Origin: a virus
DNA length: 39,013 bases
IMG/VR virus record: IMGVR_UViG_3300028430_000244
Span: 1-39,013 of that record
Strand: one strand, 5' to 3'
Every line of letters begins with the position of its first letter. Position 1 is the stretch's first letter. The notes under the pieces were generated by a model. It saw nothing but the letters and a program-made list of their open reading frames with translations. It made no database searches and was not told the origin of the DNA. A program made the position numbers and the translations under genes. Of this stretch, positions 24,746 through 28,107 are shown piece after piece.

Positions 24746-25023
24746 ACCAAGTCGCCGCCGAACAGCTTTTCGGCGTCCACCCGGAAGCCGAACCCCCGGC
24801 GGTTGAGGACCGAGCCTTGCGGCACTTTCTGCCGGATGCGATGGATCACGACCGACAGGTGGGTGTGCGACTTGCGCCATACGGACAGCGGCTCAACGTC
24901 AAGGCCGATGGCCGTGGCCAGTTGCGCGTTGCTGACGTAACCCTCGTGCTCAAGCATGTAGGCCAGCGCCAGCGCCTCTTGGTGCCCGAGGCCGAACATA
25001 TCGGCCAGTTGCGAGATGGTCAT
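24742..25023 (-). CDS. Winged-helix DNA-binding protein, OmpR/CtrA C-domain-like
   Basis: The 93-residue product has a helical N-terminal half (LADMFGLGHQEALALAYMLE, VSNAQLATAIGL). A pattern typical of response-regulator output domains follows: SVVIHRIRQKVPQGSVLNRR then GFGFRVD, i.e. a recognition helix and the final wing. There is no receiver domain. It lies directly downstream of gcrA with an ATGA overlap, so the two regulators are probably made together. Transcription control of phage or host genes is likely; targets unknown. The call as winged helix is fairly sure, the resemblance to CtrA is only general. Confidence 0.6.
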   Translation of the reverse strand: MTISQLADMFGLGHQEALALAYMLEHEGYVSNAQLATAIGLDVEPLSVWRKSHTHLSVVIHRIRQKVPQGSVLNRRGFGFRVDAEKLFGGDLV

Positions 25024-25496
25024 GTGATGTGCCTTCCGTCGGTCTTGAGGCGAGGGGGTTTGGGCGAGGCGGACGGCTCCGTGTTTTTATACATGATGAG
25101 CCGGTGCTTCGGGCAGTAGGAGCGGTGCCCCTCGGTGTCGGCGCAGCAGGAGTAGGTCACGTCGCCATCGACGATAGGGAAGGCGCACTCACCGAACTTG
25201 CGCTCGGTCCACGGACGCATAAGCGGCTCACCCACAACACGCACCTCCTTCACAGGGAACTTGATGATGTTGACGCGCTTCTCGTCGTGCGCCTTGCGCT
25301 CGTTGGGCCGGCGCACAATGCGCGGCGGCTCGGCCTTGACGGGAGCGGCTGGCTTCCCGTGTTTTGCACCCATGCGGTGCATCTTGCCGATCACGGCTTT
25401 GCGCGTGACGCCGAGGATCTTGCCGATATCCACGGCGCTCTTGCCCTCGGTCCAGAGGCGGGCGGCGAGGGCGGTGTTCTCATCCGACCAGCCCAT
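25020..25496 (-). CDS. gcrA: GcrA-family cell cycle regulator
   Basis: The 158-residue protein begins with the GcrA signature WSDENTALAARLWTEGKSAV DIGKILGVTRKAVIGKMHRMGAK. A basic linker follows, then the C-terminal sigma-contacting part with GECAFPIVDGDVTYSCCADT and SYCPKHRLIMY. In Caulobacter, GcrA binds sigma70 and activates promoters carrying methylated GANTC sites. A phage copy could redirect host polymerase to phage promoters or steer the cell cycle. Cys/His residues at the end match the family. The stop overlaps the next gene's ATG. Family assignment is strong; role in infection is inferred. Confidence 0.9.
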   Translation of the reverse strand: MGWSDENTALAARLWTEGKSAVDIGKILGVTRKAVIGKMHRMGAKHGKPAAPVKAEPPRIVRRPNERKAHDEKRVNIIKFPVKEVRVVGEPLMRPWTERKFGECAFPIVDGDVTYSCCADTEGHRSYCPKHRLIMYKNTEPSASPKPPRLKTDGRHIT

Positions 25497-26415: not shown

Positions 26416-26505
26416 TCAATCTCCCTTCTGATAGCGATACGTCTCAAACCCCGCTGCGGCGAGGGGCAGGCGGTCGGTCTGCGGCGGCTTGGTGCAGGGG
26501 GTCAT
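26416..26505 (-). CDS. 29-codon ORF ending like the DNA polymerase
   Basis: ATG 26505 overlaps the queE stop (ATGA). The product is MTPCTKPPQTDR followed by LPLAAAGFETYRYQKGD. The last 17 residues are identical to polymerase residues 638-654. It is either a translated scar of the event that placed the cassette or a tiny leader that couples queE to the next gene. Synonymous changes from the polymerase copy (TTT for TTC, GGA for GGG, GAT for GAC) show some age or a different source. Confidence 0.45.
   Translation of the reverse strand: MTPCTKPPQTDRLPLAAAGFETYRYQKGD
26423..26471 (+). repeat. 49-bp direct repeat, copy 1 (left of the cassette)
   Basis: This copy differs from 28118-28166 at one base (A at 26446, G at 28141). 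It codes for the duplicated polymerase C-terminus on the minus strand. Similarity stops sharply at the 26472 side. Confidence 0.9.
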
Positions 26506-27134
26506 CGGATACCGAGTGTCTTGTGAGTCTGGACGCTCAACCGCCAGCGGGGGTGCGCCAGACAGTAGGCAATCGCTGCTTGCGTGTTCTCGGCCAACCG
26601 AGGGCCGTCCATAGGCTGGAGCAGAAGCCGGTCAAAACCCCACTGCTCGAACACAGCAGGGTCAAGGCCAAGCTGCGGAAAGACCAACTTGAGTTCCTGT
26701 CCCGACCTCTGGACCACCGGGACCGCCCCCTTGGGGCTCACGCAGATCCAGTCGACGCCGGCTGGGCACGGCAAGGAGCCGTTGGTCTCCAGGGCGATGC
26801 TGAAACCCCTCGCGTGCAGGGCGTCGACCAGGGCCGGGTCCAGCTGAAGCAAGGGTTCGCCCCCGGTCAGCACCACCAGCCGGTCATCAGGTCCGCCGCG
26901 CCAGGCCCCCTGGATGGCGTCGGCCAGGGCCTCGGCGGAGGCGAACCGCCCGCCGCCCGGGCCGTCCATTCCCACGAAGTCCGTGTCGCAGAAGTTGCAG
27001 GCCGCCGTCGCCCGGTCCTCCTCGCGGCCAGACCAGAGGTTGCAGCCCGCGAAGCGACAGAAGACCGCCGCCCTTCCGGCCTGGCCTCCCTCGCCCTGAA
27101 GGGTCAGGAATATCTCCTTGACTGCGTAACTCAT
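26502..27134 (-). CDS. queE: 7-carboxy-7-deazaguanine synthase
   Basis: ATG 27134 gives 210 residues and overlaps the upstream stop. The radical-SAM cluster has the QueE spacing C31-x14-C46-x2-C49, within CNLWSGREEDRATAACNFCD, preceded by TLQGEGGQAGR. LTGGEPLLQLD and IALETNGSLPC follow as in characterised enzymes. QueE turns 6-carboxytetrahydropterin into 7-carboxy-7-deazaguanine. It is nearly collinear with the enterobacterial enzyme, and with the two genes upstream forms a deazaguanine pathway. Very high confidence. Confidence 0.95.
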   Translation of the reverse strand: MSYAVKEIFLTLQGEGGQAGRAAVFCRFAGCNLWSGREEDRATAACNFCDTDFVGMDGPGGGRFASAEALADAIQGAWRGGPDDRLVVLTGGEPLLQLDPALVDALHARGFSIALETNGSLPCPAGVDWICVSPKGAVPVVQRSGQELKLVFPQLGLDPAVFEQWGFDRLLLQPMDGPRLAENTQAAIAYCLAHPRWRLSVQTHKTLGIR

Positions 27135-27805
27135 ACAAACCCCTCGCCTTTGTCGATCCATTTCGGCGGGCACTGCATGGCGTCCCACCTACGCACCATA
27201 GCTGCCGGGCCTACCCGATGCTTGCTGTGGTTACGGGCCACGTCCGTGCTGTCAACGCTGGCGAATGGATACTCCCACTTCACACATTGAAGACCCCGGA
27301 GCATGTGAATCCAAGGCACTCGACGGTGCCGGCGGGAAACTTCGGCGAAGACCTGATCCATGCGCATCCGCCAACTCGGCGAGCCCACGGTGGCAAAGTC
27401 CGCCGACGACCCTATGCAGACCTTCGGCCACTCGTCCAGCAGCCGCAGCATACGGGAGACGGGCTCGTGCATGTGCCACACGGGCGCCCCGCGGTCGCCA
27501 TGCGGCCACTGAGAAAGCAGGGCGTCCTGCACCTTCTCACCGCCTTCAATGTCGTCAGGGATGACAGCCCATGTGGTGGGGTAGTCCAACCACTTGTCCG
27601 TCCAGGCGTAGTACTTGTCCCAGTCCGTCTTCTTTCCCGTCCGCCACTTTGAAAACGCGCCGTTGTCAAGCATGACGCTCTGGCCGAATTGGTGCGCGCG
27701 AGCACAGTCCGTCGGGTGAGCGTGCGAGATGCAATAGTGCCGGCCCGTGACCTGCATGAACGCAGTGATCGGGGAGATCGGCGTGCCGTGGTAATGAATC
27801 GTCAT
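27131..27805 (-). CDS. DpdA-like DNA 7-deazaguanine transglycosylase (putative)
   Basis: ATG 27805 overlaps the queD stop. The 224-residue protein shows TIM-barrel-type motifs: VMLDNGAFSKW (D47), AVIPDDIEGG (D84, D85), CIGSSADF, HMLRGLQCV, and SVDSTDVARN. Small proteins with LDNGAF and a PDD motif beside queD/queE are the phage versions of DpdA, tRNA-guanine transglycosylase relatives that swap guanine in DNA for a 7-deazaguanine. It is shorter than bacterial TGT (about 375) and lacks its CxCxxC zinc site. Family call rests on motifs plus gene context; the exact base inserted is unknown. Confidence 0.75.
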   Translation of the reverse strand: MTIHYHGTPISPITAFMQVTGRHYCISHAHPTDCARAHQFGQSVMLDNGAFSKWRTGKKTDWDKYYAWTDKWLDYPTTWAVIPDDIEGGEKVQDALLSQWPHGDRGAPVWHMHEPVSRMLRLLDEWPKVCIGSSADFATVGSPSWRMRMDQVFAEVSRRHRRVPWIHMLRGLQCVKWEYPFASVDSTDVARNHSKHRVGPAAMVRRWDAMQCPPKWIDKGEGFV

Positions 27806-28107
27806 GCCGCAATCCACTCGGCGAAGATGCCTTCTTGCTCACGGGATACAACCACGCGGCAGGCGCCAAGATCAGCACCGAACCGCGAGGCCAGACGCTC
27901 TCCCCACGCCAATTCTTCAGGCAGGAGTGTGTGGTCCCATTGCTTCAGGTAGTCCCGCACCCGCGCGGCCAGCGCCACGGCGTCTGGCGGGGACACCTCG
28001 TCGGCGGCGAACCACACTGTCACGGACCAAGTGTGCCCGTGGAGGGCACCCTCCTTGCTGTAGTGCGCGCTGGAAATGCAGCCCCGCACACCAGTGAAAA
28101 CGGCCAT
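27802..28107 (-). CDS. queD: QueD-like 6-carboxytetrahydropterin synthase, active-site Cys replaced
   Basis: The 101-residue product has the zinc-binding set H15, H23 and H25 (SAHY and LHGHTWSV), the QWDHTLLP loop, and VVVSREQEGIFAEW near the end. It would make 6-carboxytetrahydropterin for QueE. Where QueD has CxxxHGH, this protein has E19-x3-HGH; the only nearby Cys is C10. ATG 28107 lies three bases after the polymerase TAG, with AAGGGGGAC upstream. It is the first gene of the cassette. Membership in the QueD/PTPS family is sure; the exact reaction is less so. Confidence 0.85.
   Translation of the reverse strand: MAVFTGVRGCISSAHYSKEGALHGHTWSVTVWFAADEVSPPDAVALAARVRDYLKQWDHTLLPEELAWGERLASRFGADLGACRVVVSREQEGIFAEWIAA

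Follow-up and report, generated by a model that had tools for sequence, protein, structure and literature searches.

The published motifs of the PTPS superfamily read CxxxHGH for QueD and ExxHGH for PTPS-III in the consulted part of PMC5041015. In phage groups that carry DpdA together with preQ0 genes, FolE, QueD, QueE and QueC usually occur together, according to the consulted part of PMC6884629, and the synthesis of dADG in phages is termed poorly explained in the corresponding part of PMC8306585.

Here we describe a PTPS-fold protein that departs from these systems, encoded by the window, by which we mean the entire IMG/VR record that was analysed (39,013 bp, linear). E. coli QueD (4ntk) and the QueD of phage 9g share with the window protein the T-fold, the zinc His triad, the Asp-His pair, an equivalent of E70 and a gene near QueE. 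Unlike QueD (PTPS-I), the window protein lacks the catalytic Cys and has an Arg at or beside the anchor Glu, and the QueC and FolE of such systems are missing from the window record. With PTPS-III the window family shares the fold and, in many members, an acidic residue near the HGH, but the register of the Glu is off by one and the acid is not conserved in the family.

Results

The window protein is a member of the PTPS superfamily with a T-fold, as its PF01242 match over the cut-off (26.4 bits versus 22.4) and its fold match both indicate. An AF2 model built from alignment A5 reached a pLDDT of 96.7 and a pTM of 0.87, and its top structural matches in Foldseek and VIA-align were PTPS/QueD structures, with VIA-align Z scores of 14.0 to the PTPS 2dj6 (99 residues, 1.9 A) and 13.4 to E. 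coli QueD 4ntk. In two sets of records with relatives (52 altogether, one in both sets), the Pfam PTPS cut-off was passed in 12/22 and 15/31. A broken gene is excluded by the high pLDDT, the invariant residues and the overlapping, coupled genes (Table 1).

The genes for DNA polymerase, PTPS, DpdA and QueE share one strand of the window, and the QueE is a true Cx14CxxC QueE that scores above the equivalog cut-off. No QueC, FolE, second PTPS or preQ0 transporter was found in the window record. An earlier note had suggested that the phage may depend on a host QueD; with neither FolE nor a second PTPS in the record, reliance on the host is supported for at least GTP cyclohydrolase. Elsewhere in the window, positions 25020-25496 encode a GcrA-like regulator of the cell cycle (PF07750, 56.9 bits), a hint that the host is an alphaproteobacterium.

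Table 1. Features of the window and of related loci (L numbers denote loci other than the window).
Feature	Position	Strand	Basis or remark
Cys-less PTPS-fold protein, 101 aa, ATG start	27802..28107	-	ORF, PF01242, AF2 model, PDB matches
H15, first zinc-ligand position, 44/44	28063..28065	-	alignment
E19 codon, at the QueD catalytic Cys position	28051..28053	-	sequence, alignments
H23-G24-H25, remaining two zinc-ligand positions, 44/44	28033..28041	-	alignment
D58-H59, QueD catalytic Asp-His position, 44/44	27931..27936	-	alignment
E70, 44/44, also in canonical QueD	27898..27900	-	alignment
R89, 44/44, at or beside the canonical anchor Glu	27841..27843	-	alignment; hhalign gap placement contrary
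E92, acid at R+3 (E 42, D 1 of 44)	27832..27834	-	alignment
ATGA overlap, PTPS stop / DpdA start	27802..27805	-	sequence
DpdA-like DNA transglycosylase	27131..27805	-	phrog_887 E 2e-50; ATG at 27805 by ATGA overlap (ORF list: GTG 27817)
ATGA overlap, DpdA stop / QueE start	27131..27134	-	sequence
QueE	26502..27134	-	TIGR04508 347.9 bits, cut-off 240; start by ATGA overlap (ORF list: GTG 27188)
QueC, full	L077:7259-7909		TIGR00364 200.2 bits, over cut-off
phrog_15826 proteins	L029:5384-5995; L031:6270-6914; L063:3786-4391; L066:2193-2798; also L070		
Small ORF beside PTPS/DpdA	L001:13019-13273; L063:4391-4627; L077:6278-6520		
'QueD' with F-R/HGY	L096:49211-49705 (phiST); L098:3339-3800 (immuto 2-6A); L097:5529-6020 (phi38:2)		

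The segment K18-E19-G20-A21-L22-H23-G24-H25 of the window protein pairs gap-free with K-C-G-K-L-H-G-H of the canonical phage QueD L040, which places E19 at the position of the catalytic Cys, as the earlier note had read it. That Cys, the three His, the Asp-His and two Glu are invariant in our set of nine canonical QueDs (9/9), consisting of L040, L039, L002 and the QueDs of phages 9g, Dp-1, Sonali, BSP7, VpKK5 and Knocker. The Cys nearest to E19 is indeed C10, and C83 is the only other one. The place of the PTPS-III Glu, one residue closer to the HGH, is occupied by G20, and S17 stands at the Cys place of the PTPS-II motif CxxxxxHGH, so that the window protein has neither motif. It scored 25.1 bits against the TIGR03367 equivalog cut-off of 89.25, which is harsh for phages given that it also exceeds the score of the 9g QueD (63.1), whose function has been tested. 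The canonical phage QueDs examined are 11-76 aa longer than the window protein. The opposite departure was seen in the 'QueD' of the Cellulophaga/Flavobacterium phages phiST, immuto 2-6A and phi38:2, in which the Cys is kept and F-R and HGY stand at two of the zinc-His places.

Relatives were gathered from IMG/VR scans, made with the DpdA neighbour and with alignments A1 and A2, and from a phage collection, yielding 80 ORFs that match the A2 profile. These correspond to 47 distinct domains, from which three canonical ones (L040/L089, L002 and L039) were set aside, leaving 44 distinct members: the window protein, one isolate and 42 IMG/VR sequences, many of whose records are fragments. Since the A1 and A2 search patterns begin at G20 or sit at the DH motif, residue 19 was not selected for. 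Across the 44 members, position 19 is D in 19, E in 8, T in 6, G in 3, C in 2, A in 2, and S, I, Q or H in one each; the 26 representatives obtained by clustering at 60% identity have D in 7, E in 6, T in 5, G in 2, A in 2, and C, I, Q or H in one each. Because a residue other than Cys recurs at the QueD Cys position in 42/44 distinct relatives, E19 is neither chance nor a single mutation. The earlier note's view that the protein is unlikely to be an ordinary QueD is supported. In 15/44 members position 19 holds neither Cys nor an acid.

The same note had proposed that C10 might serve instead, which the family does not support: no member other than the window protein has a Cys in column 10 (1/44), and the domain contains no Cys at all in 10/44 members. 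A shifted conserved Cys, which that note had raised as the counter-case to its reading, was searched for among phage homologues and not found. While the Cys position varies, H15, H23, G24, H25, D58, H59, E70 and R89 are invariant (44/44), so that every relative keeps the zinc His triad and the Asp-His of QueD; E92 is present in 42/44, with an acid at R+3 in 43/44. Judged from sequence conservation, this combination of a variable Cys position with invariant zinc, Asp-His, E70 and R89 positions looks like that of an enzyme that is active but catalyses a different reaction.

The titles and abstract starts listed in our literature searches contained no description of a Cys-less PTPS family, and the consulted parts of PMC12783734, PMC12707154 and PMC11806900 say nothing about it. 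Among the named phages of the phage collection, only Caulobacter phage DMCA carries a Cys-less PTPS, which is annotated as 6-carboxytetrahydropterin synthase; the further matches in that collection were the canonical QueD L002 and two ssRNA phage records at E 0.3. Scanning viral contigs and 84,980 genomes with a single protein gave nothing useful, and a plasmid search with the window protein gave no match. The genome scan with A1 returned no relative, and as its pattern demanded E, D or G at position 19, this result leaves room for bacterial homes.

In PTPS structures, the Glu of V-x-V-x-E is the pterin-ring anchor, and the anchor column holds Glu in 9/9 canonical QueDs. MAFFT places R89 in this same column and HMMER sets the Arg of the R-bearing relative L099 opposite the Glu of solved QueDs, whereas hhalign pairs the canonical Glu with residue 90 and leaves R89 facing a gap. 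In the window model, strand 84-89 ends with R89, and in a model of the canonical L040 (pLDDT 85) strand 94-100 ends just ahead of E101; the two models roughly agree with R89 at the place of the anchor Glu. It is likely that the Arg replaces the anchor Glu. If it does, a further acid (E92 or E90) would be required for binding any 2-amino-4-oxo ring, a point that counts against the preferred explanation given in the Discussion.

In 42/44 members, a TGT-like transglycosylase gene lies within 2.5 kb on the same strand, and these genes fall into three families: DpdA of phrog_887 in 37 (in L031 weakly, along with phrog_15826), phrog_15826 alone in 4, and DpdA2 (PF23859, phrog_1279) in 1. The two members without such a gene nearby are L084 and L041, the latter located where its contig ends and having QueE upstream. 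Most loci were fetched via the PTPS gene, so the share carrying PTPS is given by construction, whereas the share carrying a transglycosylase is not. This near-universal pairing with a DNA transglycosylase and the invariant Arg at or beside the pterin anchor had both been missed in the earlier note.

Seen from the side of DpdA, PTPS and QueE were present in 5/10 loci fetched via DpdA, three of the five being near copies; the DpdA relatives L009-L017 have no PTPS partner, and 1/104 phage records with a DpdA relative (DMCA) carries a Cys-less PTPS. In a DpdA tree, quickly made and with many weak forks and one long outlier, PTPS-bearing rows appeared in several deep groups, with L086 inside the VUT/none group. 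The phrog_15826 proteins stand in the DpdA place beside the Cys-less PTPS, and hhalign matches a large part of them to DpdA (E 7.9e-5, probability 61); on this alignment, they are likely to be a further family of DNA transglycosylases. Three loci have a small, similar-looking ORF (79-84 aa) beside PTPS/DpdA, of which the L063 copy is phrog_9572.

QueE is found in 14/44 records and absent from 30/44, and 13 of the 14 QueE-bearing records lack QueC. QueC was found in 0/22 records of the first set and 2/31 of the second, namely L077 and its copy L078, the sole lineage among the 44 with QueE-PTPS-DpdA-QueC in one operon. FolE was found in 0/22 and 0/31, and a second PTPS in 0/52; a second canonical QueD in the phage is excluded, each record having one PTPS at most. 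The preQ0 transporter VUT occurs in 0/44 records with PTPS versus 3/5 DpdA-relative records without PTPS. In the VUT-bearing DpdA cassettes of phages Pam5 and RHph_N3_2, whose DpdA is ~60% identical to that of the window, VUT sits beside DpdA where the window has PTPS.

Finally, we found R-bearing PTPS genes in bacterial dpd-type clusters. The records examined, picked by eye rather than surveyed, were five plasmid records out of 76 and one from the phage collection. The latter, MT835580 (L099; filed as an unverified phage), encodes a QueE (65% to the window QueE), a PTPS that has S in place of the Cys and V-H-R in its tail, and QueC. An upstream ORF of this locus (MT835580.1 28524-45189) resembles Skermanella DpdB by eye, and despite its filing as phage the locus may be a bacterial dpd island. 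Its nearest plasmid relative is on a plasmid of Skermanella rosea (L100), in a dpd island arranged dpdB-dpdA-dpdB-queE-PTPS-queC, again with S and R; Microvirga (L101) has QueE-PTPS-QueC, with S at the Cys place and R. Like the window protein, these three lack the Cys, have a V-x-[VI]-x-R tail and adjoin QueE; they differ from it in a length of ~120 aa and in the presence of QueC, and in Skermanella also of bacterial DpdA/DpdB. Sinorhizobium americanum has dpdA-dpdB-queE-queD-queC with a canonical queD (C and E), Palleronia a queC-PTPS-queE-queF operon whose PTPS has C and E, and Paroceanicella an R-bearing PTPS with no que gene within the 6 kb read.

Discussion

Our preferred explanation, to which we give a probability of roughly 0.4, is that the window protein would belong to a distinct 'Arg-type' zinc-binding subfamily of the PTPS fold in phage 7-deazaguanine DNA modification, and would be neither an ordinary QueD nor a PTPS-III. 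That it belongs to the 7-deazaguanine DNA modification pathway is highly probable, while a role in base tailoring of some kind is a tentative proposal, held at somewhat under even odds. In the proposed mechanism, the PTPS would act, with no catalyst at the Cys position, on the QueE-pathway deazaguanine base that DpdA inserts into DNA. The first choice would be a decarboxylation that turns 7-carboxy-7-deazaguanine (CDG) into 7-deazaguanine, in which the Arg would hold the CDG carboxylate and zinc/Asp-His would provide acid-base chemistry; the second would be action on preQ0, at its nitrile.

Base tailoring is suggested by the lack of a conserved catalyst at the Cys position, by QueE without QueC in 13/14 records and by the tie of the PTPS to DpdA rather than to QueE, and the presence of QueE without QueC suggests that the pathway branches at CDG and not at preQ0. 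The preferred explanation also draws on the set of invariant residues, on the transglycosylase gene near the PTPS in 42/44 members, on the lack of FolE in 52 records and of VUT in the 44 PTPS-bearing ones, and on the window QueE scoring above its cut-off. Against tailoring, the like-ordered Sinorhizobium dpd island holds a canonical QueD in the PTPS slot. We regard CDG decarboxylation itself as quite unlikely because QueC-bearing phage and bacterial clusters exist: QueC lies in the same operon in L077 (copy L078), and where an R-bearing PTPS stands between QueE and QueC (L099, L100 and L101) a CDG decarboxylase would compete with QueC. In favour of it, Cui et al. (2023) reportedly described dDG in the DNA of phages and DpdL, which is predicted to be a CDG decarboxylase. 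DpdL would share its expected place with the window PTPS, standing between QueE and DpdA where a phage has no QueC, and it may be the Cys-less PTPS family itself. It is possible, if doubtful, that the subfamily without the base-catalyst Cys and with the invariant Arg at the anchor is a dedicated 7-deazaguanine tailoring enzyme partnering three TGT-like families.

The gene orders that weigh against tailoring are those expected if the protein instead stands in for QueD, supplying CPH4 (or an equivalent carboxypterin) to QueE by a Cys-independent mechanism in a rebuilt pterin pocket. In L099, in Microvirga and, together with dpdA/dpdB, in Skermanella, QueE and QueC flank an R-bearing PTPS, at the position filled by the C/E QueD in Sinorhizobium; L077 has the order QueE-PTPS-DpdA-QueC, and no second PTPS exists in any of the 52 records. 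However, it would be a QueD without the Cys in nearly all members, with neither Cys nor acid at position 19 in about a third and with an entirely Cys-free domain in some, and where QueE is missing (30/44) CPH4 supply alone would have to pay. The low TIGR03367 score also counts against it, weakly, as the tested 9g QueD falls short too. Overall, we consider a QueD stand-in rather unlikely.

The adjacency to a transglycosylase in 42/44, the ATGA coupling to DpdA and the dispensability of QueE would also suit a partner role without catalysis, in which the protein would be a T-fold subunit binding DpdA or delivering the base to it. Such a role is improbable, as the invariant zinc triad, Asp-His and E70 argue for catalysis, the DpdA relatives L009-L017 do without such a partner, and the PTPS pairs with three different transglycosylase families. 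A PTPS-III-like enzyme that relies on E19 or C10, as the earlier note had entertained, and makes 6-hydroxymethyl-dihydropterin draws on the acidity of E19 and on D/E at this position in 27/44 members but is highly improbable, since ExxHGH is one residue off (G20), position 19 is Glu in just 8/44, with T, G, A, S, C, I, Q or H there in 17/44, and C10 is found in the window protein alone.

The Arg-type reading that we prefer bears on how these phages are annotated, as a QueD annotation of their genes would predict a preQ0 pathway. Because Caulobacter phage DMCA is cultured on a laboratory strain, C. vibrioides CB15, mass spectrometry of its virion DNA offers a direct test. If the tailoring reading is true, a phage DNA base, 7-deazaguanine or a new one, would be made by a pterin-synthase fold. 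If another reaction is the true one, the DNA modification of these phages would be mispredicted, and COG0720 would gain a new enzyme activity.
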